Source: Gelria sp. Kuro-4 (lineage in GTDB: Bacteria > Bacillota > DTU030 > DUMP01). Taken from it: 64,000 nt of DNA. Both the position numbers and the translations under genes were made by a program. This document shows positions 16,033-25,955 of this stretch, piece by piece. The stretch is taken from positions 1,487,001-1,551,000 of the forward strand of contig NZ_AP024619.1 of the NCBI RefSeq assembly GCF_019668485.1. The letters run 5' to 3'. Each line of letters opens with the position of its first letter. Position 1 is the stretch's first letter. The notes beneath the pieces were generated by a model that was not told where the DNA came from, searched no databases, and saw nothing but the letters and a program-made list of their open reading frames with translations.

Positions 16033-16273
16033 ATCAAAAAGCTAAAGGCGATGAACGGGAAAGTAGGCCGAGGCCTACGGGCAGAGAGCCGGGGAAGGTG
16101 CGAGCCGGCACGGCGGTCCAGGCTGAAGATCACCCGGGAGTCGGGCGCTGAAACTCTAAAGGAGTAAGCGGCCCCGGCTGAGGCCGTTACCGGACGCGAG
16201 CGGGTGCACTTTTGCGCCCAGATGGGTGGTACCGCGGGAATAACTCTCGTCCCAAAGGGGACGGGAGTTTTCT
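16033..16273 (+). promoter_or_regulatory. T-box riboswitch, tRNA-Ile responsive
   Basis: The leader of ileS has the T-box sequence GGGTGGTACCGCGGG (16224-16238) followed by a terminator (ACTCTCGTCCC, AAA, GGGGACGGGAGT, then TTTTCT; 16243-16273). A specifier codon ATC in GAAGATCACC (16129-16131) fits isoleucine. Uncharged tRNA-Ile would stabilise the antiterminator and permit ileS transcription. The upstream stem I pairs were not fully folded by hand. Confidence 0.93.
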
Positions 16274-19138: not shown

Positions 19139-19185
19139 AAGCCGGAAGATTAAACCCATTAAGCACGGCGCACAGGAGTTTTTCA

Positions 19186-19226
19186 GGAACCCCCTTGCTT
19201 CAAGAAGAGACAAGGGGGTTCCCGTT
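19186..19226. terminator. Terminator between ileS and the convergent regulator gene
   Basis: GGAACCCCCTTG (19186-19197) pairs perfectly with CAAGGGGGTTCC (19211-19222) and is followed by CGTTTT on the plus strand. The regulator gene on the minus strand ends at 19227, so this may serve both. Confidence 0.85.
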
Positions 19227-19811
19227 TTACCCCTCTTTCAGGTAGTTCTTCATCACCGCCGGGGCCATAATGCAGAGCAGGCTGACGTCCTGATCCTCGC
19301 CGTTGTAGTAGTTGTGGGGAGCAAAAGACGAAATATAGATGCTGTCTCCTTCACACAAGACGAAACGCTCTTCACGGATCAACACATCTACCTTACCACT
19401 CAAGACGATGCTGCATTCATCTGCTTCATGAACCATGAAAACCTGGTTTAGATAGGACTTAGGCTTAAGCACCACATAGAAGACATCGAACTGACGTTTA
19501 ATGCCTTTGTTGAAAATCGGTGTCAGGATCTCCAGGGAATAGCACGCGTTCGGGAGCCTGAAAACAGCTCGTTCATCTTTTTTTACAATGTTGTTTTCTG
19601 TTACCCTATCTACGTCGTTCATGAGAAAGAAGAAAGAAGGAACGTCCAGTGCCTGGGCGATCTTTTCCAGGGCCTTTAGCGAGGGAACTATTTTGCCCCG
19701 TTCGAGCAGAGACAGATAGCCGCTGCTCAAGCCTGTTTTGCCGGCCAGCTCTTTAAGCAGCAGCCCTTTTTTCTTACGTATTTCAGCAATACGCTGTCCA
19801 ACAAAGTTCAC
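19227..19811 (-). CDS. XRE-family regulator with cupin sensor domain
   Basis: 194 residues. The N-terminal HTH (residues about 5-60: IAEIRKKKGLLLKELAGKTGLSSGYLSLLERG) precedes a small cupin barrel (KPKSYLNQVFMVHEADECSIVLSGKVDVLI, APHNYYNGEDQDV). Such regulators (PuuR/SinR-cupin type) usually sense a small molecule and control neighbouring catabolic or transport genes. GTG at 19811 is preceded by AAGGAGG with 6-nt spacing. It is divergent from the dipeptidase-permease-hydrolase genes, the obvious targets. Base composition is lower in GC than in the flanking core genes. Confidence 0.88.
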   Translation of the reverse strand: MNFVGQRIAEIRKKKGLLLKELAGKTGLSSGYLSLLERGKIVPSLKALEKIAQALDVPSFFFLMNDVDRVTENNIVKKDERAVFRLPNACYSLEILTPIFNKGIKRQFDVFYVVLKPKSYLNQVFMVHEADECSIVLSGKVDVLIREERFVLCEGDSIYISSFAPHNYYNGEDQDVSLLCIMAPAVMKNYLKEG

Positions 19812-20096
19812 CCCAATCCTCCTTAACGCTTGAACTTTCCATACAAGTATAACACCCACTAGAGAAGAAAGAAAGAACAGGAAACAAGGTGGTTAGTATC
19901 AAGGCACCGAGGTCAATGCGGATGAAAGAGGCCACTCCTGGCCAGCGATGGCAACGATAGCGCTTCGGTATGTGTAAGCCATCCTCGATAGGAAGCTTCT
20001 TCAGCGTATTCCCTACGGTCTGGCGCGTTACAAGGTTGCCACGGTCGCAGGCTGCCCGAGCGTAAGACTCGTGGGTCGCATGGGCGGTATGCCGTC
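19812..20096. other. Intergenic region of the accessory island
   Basis: About 285 bp before the dipeptidase promoter. A minus-strand open stretch reads through here (HATHESYARAACDRG...TVGNTLKKL) and faintly recalls degraded transposase sequence, but no domain or terminal repeat is recognisable. No gene is called. Confidence 0.4.
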
Positions 20097-20126
20097 TTGA
20101 CGGATCCAACTTTAGCTATATATAAT
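20097..20126 (+). promoter_or_regulatory. Promoter of the dipeptidase-permease-hydrolase operon
   Basis: TTGACG (20097-20102), 18-bp spacer, TATAAT (20121-20126). A 175-bp leader follows before the first gene. Confidence 0.75.
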
Positions 20127-20130
20127 TTGG

Positions 20131-20145
20131 TTAAGTATTACTAAA
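20131..20145 (+). promoter_or_regulatory. Candidate operator just downstream of the -10 box
   Basis: TTAAGTATTACTAAA is an odd-centred palindrome (AGTA-T-TACT with matching outer TT/AA) placed over the expected transcription start. Its position suggests repression, probably by the divergent XRE-cupin protein. Confidence 0.45.
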
Positions 20146-20172
20146 CTTTGTGCGTGGTAGTTTTGCGGTAAT

Positions 20173-20206
20173 GTACAAGGGGACCACTTGGCGGCCCTTT
20201 GTAAAT
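20173..20206 (+). promoter_or_regulatory. Leader hairpin of the dipeptidase operon
   Basis: GTACAAGGG and CCCTTTGTA form an imperfect stem with one bulge in the 5' leader. No U-run follows. A strong SD (AAGGAGGTG, 20234-20242) further on has no credible gene behind it. Function unknown. Confidence 0.3.
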
Positions 20207-20302
20207 CCCTAGACAACCTCATAGGTAGTCGGAAAGGAGGTGAACGGGAGGAGGAAAGACAGACGGCAACCAATCTAGACTAGGTGAGGAGCGATTAGCA
20301 CG

Positions 20303-21328
20303 GTGGCAGAAGGTAAACAAAAGGCTTTGGTGGTTGATGCGCATTTTGATTTACTCTTCGATCTGGGCAAGAGGCACACCTTGGGAGAAAAGCAGGTGAT
20401 CAAGAACAGGTATCTTCCGTTGTTTCGAGAAGGCGGGGTTGACGTTGTTGCCGGGGCTATTTATGTGGATGATGCCTATCTGCCGGAGATGGCACTCCGG
20501 CAGGCGTTGGACCAAGTAAGCTCCCTTTATCAAGAATTGCAAGATACGCCTGACGATATCCAACTTTGCTGCACATACCAAGACATCGTTGCTGCCAGTG
20601 AAGCCGGTAAGGTTGCGATCATCCTTACTATGGAAGGAGTGGAGCCCCTTTTTAATGACCTTAATCTCCTCCCCGTTTTTTATCAGCTTGGCGTACGAGT
20701 AGTCACTCTGACTCACAGCCGCAGAAATTATGCTGCCGACGGTTGCGCGTACACGGAAGTTCCGTCAGGTAAAGCAGGGGGGCTGACTGATTTCGGCGTG
20801 AGGGTAGTTGAGCTGGCTCAAAGGCTTGGCATAGTCGTCGATGTGAGCCATCTCAACGAAGAAGGTTTTTGGGATGCGATGGAGTTTTGCCCTGGGCCGG
20901 TGATCTTTTCACACTCAAACCCTAAGGCGCTTTGCAACGTTCCGAGAAACGTCACCGATGACCAGATCAAGGCTATTGCACAACATAACGGAGTCGTTTG
21001 TATTAATGCAACGAATCTTATGCTCGACACCAATCCCCAGCGAGTCGACGTCTCCCGGTATCTTGATCATGTGGAGTATGTTGCTGATTTGGTCGGAGTA
21101 GATTTTGTAGGCCTCGGATTCGATTTTTGCGATCACCTTCTTGCCTTCTTATCTGACGCTGAGAAGGCCCGCCTGCCCAAGTTCTTTGCCGCCCCTGGAA
21201 TTTCCAACCATGGAGAAGTTGTAAATGTGAAAAAAGGACTCTTGCAGCGTGGGTTTAGTGAATCTGAAGTAGCGCGAATCATGGGCGGCAATTATTTGCG
21301 CGTCTTCAAGGAAGTAGTTGGAAAATAA
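20303..21328 (+). CDS. Membrane dipeptidase family (peptidase M19)
   Basis: 341-residue binuclear zinc amidohydrolase of the renal dipeptidase family, which cleaves dipeptides, including those with a C-terminal D-residue, and in some members beta-lactams. The metal-binding pattern is visible: VDAHFDLLFDL (HxD), TMEGVEPL (bridging Glu), LTHSRRNYAADGC, DVSHLNEEGFWD, FSHSNPKALC and GLGFDFCD. There is no signal peptide, so it is cytoplasmic. GTG start with SD GTGAGGAG at wider than usual spacing. First gene of an operon with a permease and a CocE-like hydrolase. Confidence 0.92.
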   Translation: MAEGKQKALVVDAHFDLLFDLGKRHTLGEKQVIKNRYLPLFREGGVDVVAGAIYVDDAYLPEMALRQALDQVSSLYQELQDTPDDIQLCCTYQDIVAASEAGKVAIILTMEGVEPLFNDLNLLPVFYQLGVRVVTLTHSRRNYAADGCAYTEVPSGKAGGLTDFGVRVVELAQRLGIVVDVSHLNEEGFWDAMEFCPGPVIFSHSNPKALCNVPRNVTDDQIKAIAQHNGVVCINATNLMLDTNPQRVDVSRYLDHVEYVADLVGVDFVGLGFDFCDHLLAFLSDAEKARLPKFFAAPGISNHGEVVNVKKGLLQRGFSESEVARIMGGNYLRVFKEVVGK

Positions 21329-21437
21329 GAGCGTAATCACGTGAGCCGGCTCGTCTGGTTCCAGTCAATCATGTCTGGCGGTTGTGCCTTCAGGCCATTT
21401 AACTAAGACTTATCAAAACTGGAGGAGGAGATTCGGG

Positions 21438-22598
21438 GTGCCTTCGTTGATCTCAACTCAGCCGGGCCTTCTGGCCGGAGTCGCCGCAATGGTGGCCACA
21501 TCGTTATTTCTACAAAAGTACAGGTTCTTTAAGTCGATCGGTCCTGCGCTTACCTGCATTGTTCTCGGGATAATCGTCTCTAACTTAAAGATCCTCCCAC
21601 ATTCGGATGAAACGTATGGCGTGTTTTTCACCTACGCGATTCCCCTTGCTCTTACCATGTTCTTGCTTTCAGTAAATATCAAGGAGTGGATCAGACTCTC
21701 ACGCCAACCGCTGTTCGCTATGCTGTTGGCCGTTATCAGCGTAAGCATTATGGCCCTTGCCACCGGTTTGGTGCTGGCCCCGAAGATTGACGAAGGTTGG
21801 AAGATCGCAGGCATGTTTGTAGGTACCTACACCGGAGGCAGCAGCAACCTAGCGGCGATCGGGACAGGACTTGAGGTGACACCTACGACCTTCGCAACCG
21901 CTAACGCCGCCGACTATGTGATCGGTATCCCTACGATTGTCTTTTTCTTTGCTGCTCCCGCCCTTATTGCCCGTTCTAAGGCTTTTAAGAAATTCTGGCC
22001 GTATAGTCTGAGAGATCATGAGCTTGTGGGCGATGACGCGGCGTCCCTTCTTACGAAGAAAGAGTGGTCGGTGATCGACATAGCGGTACTTTTCGCCATT
22101 GGTTTCGTAGTGACTGCTGTCTCTACTCAAATCGCTGGTTACTTTAATAAAGCGGTGGCAGGTGCAGTACGCATCATCTCAGTCACAACCTTATCCCTTA
22201 TCTTGGCTCAGTTTAAACCAATGCGGCAGATTAAAGGAAACATGGACTTAGGCCTCTTTGTTTCGTTGTTCTACTTGGCAGCTATTGGTTTAGCCATTGA
22301 CCTTAAACAGTTTTTAGGCTCTGCCCCTCTGGTTACCCTGTACTGCTTTTTCGTTGCTGTGGGTTCTCTTTTGTTGCACGCTACTCTCTGTCGGTTGTTC
22401 AAGGTCAGCTATCAGTACACGCTGATCTCCATCGTCGCTTCCATCGCTGATGGCACGACATCTGCGCTGGTGGCTGGTTCGGGCGGTTGGAACGGCATCA
22501 TAGGTACGGCCGTAATCCTGGGGGCCATCGGCAACGCGGTAGGAAACTACTTGGGGATAGGGGTTGCGTACCTGCTCAAAACGGTGCTGGGTCTGTAG
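21438..22598 (+). CDS. DUF819 family membrane protein (putative permease)
   Basis: 386 residues with about 10-11 membrane helices. Family features include the Gly/Ser-rich GTYTGGSSNLAAIGTGL with NAADYVIGIP after it, and a C-terminal inverted-looking repeat (SIADGTTSALVAGSGGWNGIIGTAVILGAIGNAVGNYLG). The family (e.g. B. subtilis YjcL) is not biochemically defined but looks like a secondary transporter. The GTG at 21438 lies 7 nt after GGAGGAGGAG. It is placed between two peptidase/amidase-type genes, so it may import the substrate they cleave. Confidence 0.88.
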   Translation: MPSLISTQPGLLAGVAAMVATSLFLQKYRFFKSIGPALTCIVLGIIVSNLKILPHSDETYGVFFTYAIPLALTMFLLSVNIKEWIRLSRQPLFAMLLAVISVSIMALATGLVLAPKIDEGWKIAGMFVGTYTGGSSNLAAIGTGLEVTPTTFATANAADYVIGIPTIVFFFAAPALIARSKAFKKFWPYSLRDHELVGDDAASLLTKKEWSVIDIAVLFAIGFVVTAVSTQIAGYFNKAVAGAVRIISVTTLSLILAQFKPMRQIKGNMDLGLFVSLFYLAAIGLAIDLKQFLGSAPLVTLYCFFVAVGSLLLHATLCRLFKVSYQYTLISIVASIADGTTSALVAGSGGWNGIIGTAVILGAIGNAVGNYLGIGVAYLLKTVLGL

Positions 22599-22617
22599 TA
22601 AAGGAGCGCGCAACAAG

Positions 22618-24726
22618 ATGGATACCGGGAATCAGGTTTTTGCGTACTACAAGTATGGGGTGCATCGAGCCGACGTGATTCTGGAACGCGCCGGCGTCTT
22701 GCACCGAAAAAAGGATGTCGGTACCGGGGCGTGGTCGGACTTCCGCCCTGTGGGAGAAAAAGACAGTGCTTTCTACGAGCTTCCGCTGGCTGAGATAGCC
22801 CAAAATCTCGAGGAGTTAAACAGCGCCTTCCGGGAAGGCGCCGCGGAAGTTACACTTGGTTATGGTGCGCATTATCATCGTTATCAAAGGGTCGCCGGTT
22901 CGGTGGCCGGGAAGCGGGACACCGCCTGGATTTGGGTGCAACGAGGGGTTAAGTTCCCGCTCGATGTAGTTGCCTGCCGGGATGAAGTCATAGGTTTCAT
23001 CAAGACCCGGAGGGAAGGCTGCCTGATTCTTGTGCGGCCCGGGTACGAGGACCTGACTCCTCTAGGAGAGTGGCACCGGCCGGGTCTTTCCCAGGCGGTG
23101 CACACCGTTAAGCACATGGGCACCTTCCAGGTGGAAATGCGAGATGGAGTAAAGCTGGCAACTGAGGTCTATTTGCCGGGGGATTTGCTCCCGGGGACCA
23201 AGGTACCTACCATTCTGATTCGTACGCCGTACGGGCGGACCAAGTTTGCTGAGCCGGAACTGCGCTTTGTTTTCCGCGGGTACGCAGTGGTGGCACAGGA
23301 TTGCCGGGGGCGTGGAGATTCTGAAGGAGAGTGGCTGCCGTTCGTGCACGAGCTCGCCGACGGCAGCGATACCCTGGATTGGATCGCCGCCCAACCATGG
23401 TCGGACGGCAAAGTGGGGATGATCGGCGGCTCTTACGGAGGCTTCGTCCAGTGGGCTGCCGCCGGAAGCGGCAACCCCCACCTCAAGGCTATGGTGAGTC
23501 TTGTGACTTCAGGCAGTCCCTTTGGGGATCTCCCGCGTAAAGGGGGGACCCTCATGTCGGGCGTCCTTGCCTGGTGCTTCATGGTAGCGGCGAAACACGC
23601 CGACCCGGCGGCTGTAAAGCGTGACGACTGGGACAAGGTTCTCAGCCACCGGCCGATAAAGGACATTCCCTTCAAGGCTTTGGGTAAAGAAATACCCTTC
23701 TGGAGCGAGTGGATGCGCCACCCAGATTACGACCGGTTTTGGCAGGCAGGGGACTGGAGATGTCACGGTGACAAGATTAACGTGCCGGCACTGATCATCT
23801 CTGGGTGGTATGACGACGATGGCCAGGGCACCAGTGAGGCCTGGGAAATGGTTAACAAATACCGCCGGGGGAATCAGCGCCTTATCCTTGGCCCCTGGTA
23901 TCACCAGGCCAACACTACGCGCGACATTCACAACATTGCCTTCGGCGACAACGCCATCCGGTATGACCTCGACGTACTCTATTTGCGTTGGTTTGATCGT
24001 TTTCTCAAAGGCGTTGAGAACGAAGTGGAGAAGGAGCCGCGCGTTCAATACTACCTCGTGGGTGCCGGCGAATGGCGGAACGCCGACGCTTGGCCGCCGG
24101 CAGAAGTGAAGCTTACCAAACTCTATTTGCGTGCAGGCGGCAGGCTATCATTCACTGCCCCGCCGACTCAAGAGCGACCCGATACGTATACTTTCGATCC
24201 GTCCGACCCTGCTCCTCATCTGATCGACGTTTCGGAAAACGAGCTCAGTGTTCCTGAAAACTACAAAGAAGTAGAAAAAAGAGCAGATGTTCTCACTTAT
24301 ACCACCGAGCCGCTGGCGGAAGACGTGACCGTCGCCGGTGACCTTTTTGCCTGCCTCTACGCTGCCAGTAGTGCCAAGGATACTGACTGGGTCATCCGGG
24401 TGACGGATGTGGACGACCAAGGTAATTCAATTCGGGTTTCTGACGGTATTCTACGAGCCCGCTACCGGCATGGATTTGACTGCCCCAAGCTCCTTACCCC
24501 CGGCCAGGTGGAGGAGTACCGACTGCGTTTAACCCGCGTCGGCTATGTCTTTAAGGAAGGCCACAGGATTAGAGTACAGGTAACCTCTGGTGCCCAAAAC
24601 CTTGCTTTTCCTAATACCAATACGGGCAATGATCCAGCTGCCGACACAGAAAGCGTGGTCGCGAACCAGACTGTGTTGCACGAGCCGGATTATCCGAGCC
24701 ACGTGGAACTGCCTCTTCTCAGTTAG
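22618..24726 (+). CDS. CocE/NonD-family serine hydrolase with N-terminal extension
   Basis: 702-residue alpha/beta hydrolase of the X-Pro dipeptidyl-peptidase/cocaine esterase type (alpha-amino acid ester hydrolases, glutaryl acylases). Catalytic triad: S272 in GGSYGG, D399 in SGWYDD, H429 in LGPWYH; the C-terminal jelly-roll domain starts about residue 480. The usual N-terminus (QVEMRDGVKLATEVYLP) begins only at residue 171; about 170 residues of unrecognised sequence precede it. No signal peptide. ATG with SD AAGGAG 12 nt upstream. Third gene of the island operon. Confidence 0.9.
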   Translation: MDTGNQVFAYYKYGVHRADVILERAGVLHRKKDVGTGAWSDFRPVGEKDSAFYELPLAEIAQNLEELNSAFREGAAEVTLGYGAHYHRYQRVAGSVAGKRDTAWIWVQRGVKFPLDVVACRDEVIGFIKTRREGCLILVRPGYEDLTPLGEWHRPGLSQAVHTVKHMGTFQVEMRDGVKLATEVYLPGDLLPGTKVPTILIRTPYGRTKFAEPELRFVFRGYAVVAQDCRGRGDSEGEWLPFVHELADGSDTLDWIAAQPWSDGKVGMIGGSYGGFVQWAAAGSGNPHLKAMVSLVTSGSPFGDLPRKGGTLMSGVLAWCFMVAAKHADPAAVKRDDWDKVLSHRPIKDIPFKALGKEIPFWSEWMRHPDYDRFWQAGDWRCHGDKINVPALIISGWYDDDGQGTSEAWEMVNKYRRGNQRLILGPWYHQANTTRDIHNIAFGDNAIRYDLDVLYLRWFDRFLKGVENEVEKEPRVQYYLVGAGEWRNADAWPPAEVKLTKLYLRAGGRLSFTAPPTQERPDTYTFDPSDPAPHLIDVSENELSVPENYKEVEKRADVLTYTTEPLAEDVTVAGDLFACLYAASSAKDTDWVIRVTDVDDQGNSIRVSDGILRARYRHGFDCPKLLTPGQVEEYRLRLTRVGYVFKEGHRIRVQVTSGAQNLAFPNTNTGNDPAADTESVVANQTVLHEPDYPSHVELPLLS

Positions 24727-24857
24727 CCCTTTCATCAGTGCTTTACTGAGATCAATTGTCTGAAATTTGTCCGGTTGCTGTGATCGGCACTTGGAGAATT
24801 CAACTGTTCTGGGTCCTCACGCTTTCCCCTGATCGGCGCGGATACTTTTCCCAGTTG

Positions 24858-24886
24858 AGAGGAGGGGGCTAACCGCCCCCTCTTCT
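24858..24886 (+). terminator. Hairpin closing the accessory operon
   Basis: AGAGGAGGGGGC and GCCCCCTCTTCT pair over 12 positions with a 5-nt loop (TAACC); a weak U-rich tail follows. It lies 130 bp after the hydrolase gene. The rest of the 268-bp gap holds nothing else I can support. Confidence 0.65.
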
Positions 24887-24994
24887 CGATTATGGAAAGT
24901 GTGGAAAGGAATTCTCCCGGCCGCGGCGAATGAAATAGGGTATGGTGCACTAAGGATGGTCTCTGCCGGGCATTCTAAAGACGAGGTGACGGGT

Positions 24995-25286: not shown

Positions 25287-25955
25287 ATGGAAGATGTCCG
25301 GCGCTTCCGCGCTCTTTTGGAAAAGAAAAGAGAGGAGCTCAGCGACAGGGCCAAAACCATACACAGGTACGGCCTGGACGAGGCCCAGGCGGACTCGGTG
25401 GGGGAGCTTTCCGCCTATGATAACCATCCCGCCGACCTGGGAGACGAGACCTTCGAGCGCGGCAAAGACCTGGGGCTCCTGGACAATACGCGCGTGCTCC
25501 TGGGGAAGGTGGAGGAGGCCTTGGCCCGCATCAAGAGCGGCACCTACGGCCGCTGCGAACTCTGCGGCCGGGACATCGACCTCGACCGGCTGGAGGCGGT
25601 GCCCTGGACGACGCTCTGCCGGGAGTGCAAGGAGAAGGAGGAGCGGCGCGAGTGGGGGCCGTCCGACCGGCCGCTGGAGGAGCCGGTTTTAGACGAACCA
25701 TTTGGGCGCACCTTCCTTGACAACACCGACTACGTGGGCTTCGACGGCGAAGACGCCTGGCAGGCAGCGGCCCGCTACGGTACGTCCGAAGGGCCCCAGG
25801 ACGTAGGCGGCGTCGATTCCTACAACGACACCTACATCAATTCCGACGAGCAGCGCGGGGCGGTGGAAGACGTGGAGGAAGTGGTGATCGAGGACCCGGC
25901 GGAGCTCTTTGGCCGGGCCCGCCCCAGCCCAGGTCGTTCCAGGCGGCGCAGCTGA
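25287..25955 (+). CDS. YteA/YlyA-type TraR/DksA zinc-finger protein
   Basis: 222 residues. N-terminal coiled region (RFRALLEKKREELSDRA), the conserved SELSxYDNHPADLGDETFERGKDLGL-like block, then a C4 zinc finger (CELCGRDI ... CRECKEK) of the TraR/DksA type, and an acidic C-terminal half ending in a basic tail. Relatives are sporulation-linked (YteA) or act on RNA polymerase (YlyA). It occupies the ylyA position before lspA. ATG with SD GGGGAGG. Confidence 0.88.
   Translation: MEDVRRFRALLEKKREELSDRAKTIHRYGLDEAQADSVGELSAYDNHPADLGDETFERGKDLGLLDNTRVLLGKVEEALARIKSGTYGRCELCGRDIDLDRLEAVPWTTLCRECKEKEERREWGPSDRPLEEPVLDEPFGRTFLDNTDYVGFDGEDAWQAAARYGTSEGPQDVGGVDSYNDTYINSDEQRGAVEDVEEVVIEDPAELFGRARPSPGRSRRRS

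Follow-up and report, generated by a model that had tools for sequence, protein, structure and literature searches.

The M15 family contains the D-Ala-D-Ala dipeptidases. In E. coli, DdpXABCDF encodes a D-Ala-D-Ala dipeptidase together with a transporter (PMC8743547), and in Neisseria meningitidis a DUF819-M15 gene pair has been reported (PMC12671195). DUF819 proteins have been assigned to the CPA-reentrant fold group, alongside carriers of amino acids and organic acids such as ESS and AAEx (PMC8396727), and no function for DUF819 was found in the literature searched. Among hydrolases related to cocaine esterase, the α-amino acid ester hydrolases (AEH) hold the amino group of the substrate with Asp209, Glu310 and Asp311, carboxylates located near the catalytic Asp308 (PMC3890990).

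We analyzed a 64,000-nucleotide stretch of Gelria sp. Kuro-4 DNA (contig NZ_AP024619.1), hereafter the window, in which a block of four intact genes encodes an XRE-cupin regulator on the minus strand and an M19 dipeptidase, a DUF819 permease and a CocE/NonD hydrolase on the plus strand. All four genes exceeded the curated Pfam cut-offs, in agreement with the first-pass annotation, which had named these genes at this position. It had also placed them between ileS and the ylyA-type gene; the location is right, although the direct neighbor is DUF5665 and the ylyA/dksA-type gene lies one further on. The features of the region are as follows.

16042-16257, plus strand: T-box leader upstream of ileS, an ordinary regulatory element (Rfam RF00230, 104 bits)
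19139-24895, no strand: low-GC inserted island between ileS and DUF5665 (empty site in G001 and G002, GC dip; ends approximate)
19227-19859, minus strand: XRE-cupin transcriptional regulator, transcribed away from the operon (Pfam HTH_3 9.7e-13, Cupin_2 6.8e-12)
19783-20109, minus strand: probable decayed ISLre2/UPF0236-type IS remnant between regulator and operon (repeat similarity)
20097-20126, plus strand: candidate sigma-70 promoter for the operon, TTGACG-18-TATAAT (11/12 consensus match)
20303-21328, plus strand: M19 dipeptidase (Pfam Peptidase_M19, E=2.9e-90)
21438-22598, plus strand: DUF819 permease of the CPA/AT superfamily, 386 aa (Pfam, E=4.7e-45)
22618-24726 (from ATG), plus strand: CocE/NonD hydrolase (Pfam Peptidase_S15 and PepX_C; NCBIfam CocE_NonD, E=8e-116)
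22618-23178, plus strand: undescribed N-terminal domain of CocE (~165 aa and linker), kept in distant relatives
23179-24726, plus strand: S15/CocE catalytic and PepX_C domains (Pfam, NCBIfam; PDB cocaine esterase, E=7e-78)
24857-24887, no strand: GC-rich inverted repeat 3' of the CocE gene, possible terminator (read from the sequence)
25287-25955: ylyA/dksA-type gene, beyond DUF5665

The island is 5.8 kb in size and interrupts the order ileS–DUF5665–ylyA(dksA)–lspA. In both same-genus genomes the site is empty, with only about 40-100 bp from ileS to DUF5665, and the homology to these genomes ends at window position ~19125 and restarts at ~24900. The insert was absent from every family or class relative carrying ileS and DUF5665 on one contig. 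The lower GC noticed at first reading was also found when composition was computed: GC was about 0.50-0.59 in the island versus 0.62-0.67 in the flanks, and GC3 was 0.50-0.64 in the island genes versus 0.75-0.85 in most flanking genes. The island reading is thus borne out by the empty site, and the island is horizontally acquired foreign DNA. It displays two features of a genomic island, namely its absence from the empty site of close relatives and its atypical composition, and the only trace of mobility (mobility gene, integrase or att repeats) is the decayed IS remnant. No flanking repeat pair was found at the borders and no integrase among the island ORFs, and a conjugative or integrase-borne origin was rejected on these grounds.

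The regulator is 34% identical to a regulator adjoining a DUF819-M19 pair at another locus (L109). Against NCBIfam PuuR it scored 57.3 bits, below the cut-off of 211, so that the architecture alone matches. The ORF at 19783-20109, which had no Pfam match, is probably an IS remnant, since positions 19894-19957 resemble two other sites in the same genome at 76-85% identity, one of them adjoining a UPF0236 fragment. The sigma-70 candidate is weak because the regional match count was no higher than in shuffled sequences, and a consensus scan did not call the inverted repeat. The DUF819 ORF was listed as 21384-22598, and the GTG start at 21438 is favored by alignment to relatives and by the GGAGGAGG site; with this start, the gap from M19 to DUF819 is 109 bp. 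DUF819 and CocE are separated by only 19 bp on the same strand, with an AAAGGAG ribosome site between them.

The M19 protein scored 303 bits against PF01244 (cut-off 26), and the alignment places a complete set of binuclear metal ligands at H14, D16, E111, H183, H204 and D274. Its PDB relatives are dipeptidases, and the best PDB sequence matches include the gliotoxin dipeptidase GliJ. Neither M19 nor CocE has a signal peptide as judged by eye, as was also noticed at first reading. In the M19 tree, a second M19 of the genome (G000:C1:2643586) is the vertically inherited copy, placed among the M19 proteins of its genus and family. The island M19 clusters with proteins from Maledivibacter and of the Desulfobacterales type and falls outside both the DUF819-linked and the CocE-linked M19 clades. 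One of its four nearest relatives lies in a Maledivibacter cluster with an M55 D-aminopeptidase, a serine-dehydratase-like enzyme and an ornithine-racemase-like protein.

The DUF819 permease matched PF05684 with 154.7 bits over profile positions 3-377 of 379 and contains about 9-10 hydrophobic segments; no PDB relative was found by sequence. It forms a deep branch of its own in the tree, outside the peptidase-linked DUF819 clade. When the class of G056 was searched with the DUF819 profile, G056 was the sole match.

The CocE hydrolase scored 388 bits against TIGR00976 (cut-off 66.3), and the family alignment assigns the catalytic triad to S272, D399 and H429, with Tyr205/Tyr273 as oxyanion-hole residues. 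Its N-terminal domain had no Pfam match at E<1, and a profile of this domain searched against the PDB matched only through the start of the S15 domain. Structure prediction from the single window sequence was uninformative (pLDDT 37.7). Two CocE relatives on viral contigs gave matches without the N-terminal domain. The acidic residues D304 and D401 are invariant across the N-extended CocE group. D401 lies at +2 from the catalytic Asp, the spacing of AEH Glu310, and the distance of D304 from the Ser is +32, versus +34 for Asp209 in XrAEH. The third AEH carboxylate is missing, the +3 position being Gly/Ser, and short PDB queries for a residue-level alignment returned no AEH match. This pattern suggests that CocE may recognize a free amino group.

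To see whether these genes recur together, we searched a sample of roughly 630 genomes, in which the counts take in related genomes. The full four-gene set was not found elsewhere in this sample, whereas pairs of its members do recur, contrary to the outcome that would refute the first-pass reading, genes that never recur together. DUF819 adjoins M19 in six other Bacillota loci (L109, L112, L114, L189, L190 and L221) spanning four families (f38, f92, f46 and f116), in a divergent arrangement in L112 and L189. An XRE-cupin gene is present in four of the six (L109, L112, L189 and L221), and a D-Ala-D-Ala ligase-family gene lies within three of these clusters (L109, L112 and L189). At another locus, L218, the partner of DUF819 is a VanX/DdpX-type M15 'D-ala-D-ala dipeptidase' (E=1.1e-27). 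Several DUF819 genes have no peptidase neighbor and another DUF819 branch adjoins an acetyltransferase gene; the association with peptidases is therefore not universal. The window DUF819 and M19 are distinct from the peptidase-linked clades; the sets may have been assembled independently, in which case the link would be stronger, or may have diverged together long ago.

Some details of these loci were observed in their own right. In L221 (9642-10088), an internally deleted DUF819 lies beside an intact M19 and an XRE-cupin gene, such that the transporter decays while the peptidase stays. The D-Ala-D-Ala ligase-family gene is directly 5' of, or overlaps, the XRE-cupin gene in L112 (14307-16069) and L189 (3849-5625). 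On a Ruegeria pomeroyi megaplasmid (L192, 4642-6969), DUF819 immediately follows a DSD1-family PLP enzyme gene, and a D-arabinono-1,4-lactone-oxidase-type gene lies just 5' of this pair.

CocE recurs in a different context. Relatives of the window CocE at E<=1e-130 were found in 32 of the 201 genomes of one Bacilli order, most of them aligning through the ~165-aa N-terminal domain, and in all 20 Bacilli loci inspected (L066, L117 and L171-L188; three families) an ornithine-cyclodeaminase-like gene, M19 and CocE stand in a row. These CocE proteins are about 44% identical to that of the window and belong to the same N-extended subfamily. The subfamily, conserved in Bacilli and other Bacillota, is undescribed, and nothing joining ornithine cyclodeaminase, membrane dipeptidase and CocE was found in the literature searched. 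In the two copies aligned, the M19 of the Bacilli cluster has retained two His and the Asp, but neither the HxD pair nor the bridging Glu. Due to this ligand loss, the M19-CocE pairing may not mean dipeptide hydrolysis, and the Bacilli protein is possibly an M19 fold with new chemistry. At L118 and at L191 (a Subdoligranulum plasmid), the N-extended CocE gene comes directly after genes of the Dpp/Opp peptide ABC type. CocE genes without the extension likewise adjoin ABC transporters.

Considering these pairings together, we regard the island, with moderate confidence, as a horizontally acquired operon that takes up and hydrolyzes a small, unusual nutrient of peptide-like nature. Uptake followed by intracellular cleavage is supported by the recurrence of DUF819 with M19 (and XRE-cupin), DUF819 with M15, CocE with M19 and CocE with peptide ABC transporters. 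The intact catalytic residues of the window M19 and CocE, and the use of different peptidases (M19, M15) with the same carrier family, point in the same direction. The D-Ala-D-Ala ligase and DSD1 genes beside DUF819 at other loci and the Maledivibacter D-aminopeptidase also count toward this reading, although ddl genes may occur near DUF819-M19 through other causes. Against the operon reading, the quartet was seen only in the window among the genomes sampled, and both the window DUF819 and M19 fall outside the linked clades. Of the earlier proposal that an unusual peptide, amide or β-lactam is imported and cleaved, the peptide-like part is supported by the recurrent pairings and the β-lactam or detoxification part gained no specific support.

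The proteins would share a substrate class, probably a dipeptide with a D-residue or an aminoacyl compound. The XRE-cupin protein would sense this compound or its product and control the divergent operon, and DUF819, a carrier of the CPA/AT fold, would import the dipeptide or aminoacyl compound, probably bearing a D-residue as released from peptidoglycan. The cytoplasmic M19, with its complete metal site, would then split the dipeptide, an activity predicted at family level. The N-extended CocE-like serine hydrolase would cleave a related bond, whether an aminoacyl ester, an amide or one of X-Pro type, where D304 and D401 may hold the free amino group of the substrate.

It is less probable, and on the whole unlikely, that the island combines two separate acquisitions, an XRE-cupin/M19/DUF819 module for D-dipeptides and an independent CocE with an unrelated substrate. 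The GC of the CocE gene is 0.57 compared with 0.47-0.51 in the other three, so CocE may have a separate source, and no other locus examined has both the DUF819-M19 and the CocE-M19 pair. However, the 19-bp gap on one strand with its ribosome site ties CocE to DUF819, and N-extended CocE is found elsewhere with M19 and peptide transporters. That the genes are chance neighbors at an insertion-prone site, as the decayed ISLre2-like remnant within the island could indicate, is improbable, since DUF819-M19 recurs in four families and CocE-M19 in three, far above the expectation for genomes that carry one or two M19 genes each.

Renal dipeptidase acts on carbapenems, a family-level precedent for detoxification of a β-lactam or another amide or ester antibiotic, in which M19 would open carbapenem-like rings and CocE would cut the acyl-amino side chain. 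AEHs act on ampicillin and cephalexin (PMC3890990), and the window CocE has acidic residues, D401 and D304, close to the sites of two of the three AEH carboxylates. Nevertheless, the third is Gly/Ser, the neighbors at related loci are D-Ala-D-Ala ligase or dipeptidase, D-aminopeptidase and peptide transporters, no resistance or penicillin-binding genes were recognized among the related loci examined, and uptake first makes little sense for a compound active outside the membrane. As such, we consider detoxification very unlikely. The least probable case is that the island serves to make or trim a secondary metabolite derived from a peptide and DUF819 exports the product, with M19 acting as GliJ does, a protein among its best PDB matches; no biosynthetic gene lies in or beside the island and the Maledivibacter cluster has a catabolic character.

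Compared with known systems, the uptake-and-hydrolysis operon resembles each of them only in part. The window CocE shares with AEH and cocaine esterase (S15/CocE) the fold, the catalytic triad and the PepX_C domain, and with AEH a conserved acid two residues past the catalytic Asp, but it has an extra ~165-aa N-terminal domain and no third AEH carboxylate. In the Bacilli clusters an N-extended CocE likewise stands beside an M19-family protein, whereas an ornithine-cyclodeaminase-like gene takes the place of DUF819 and the M19 is without several metal ligands; they represent a second uncharacterized system, with no description found in the literature searched. At the N. meningitidis methylcitrate locus (PMC12671195), DUF819 also adjoins a metallopeptidase, yet of family M15 instead of M19, and neither CocE nor a cupin regulator is reported there. 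The pairing of DUF819 with two unrelated dipeptidase families leads to a concrete, testable substrate hypothesis for DUF819. As for DdpXABCDF, a carrier gene and a dipeptidase gene are encoded together in the island as in the Ddp arrangement, and the island would similarly join an importer and a cytoplasmic dipeptidase for a D-residue dipeptide in one operon. In contrast, Ddp combines a Dpp-type ABC transporter with the M15 enzyme DdpX under NtrC/RpoN control, whereas the island, with no ABC genes among its ORFs, has a single-gene DUF819 carrier, M19 and CocE with an XRE-cupin regulator. The Ddp system was rejected as the identity of the island, as the peptidase and transporter families both differ. 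We tentatively propose, as a possibility short of an even chance, that DUF819 proteins serve across bacteria as secondary carriers for dipeptides with a D-residue, D-Ala-D-Ala-like ones among them, with cytoplasmic M19 or M15 dipeptidases as interchangeable partners, and that the island, with an N-extended CocE added, would be a new, ABC-free system for scavenging peptidoglycan dipeptides.
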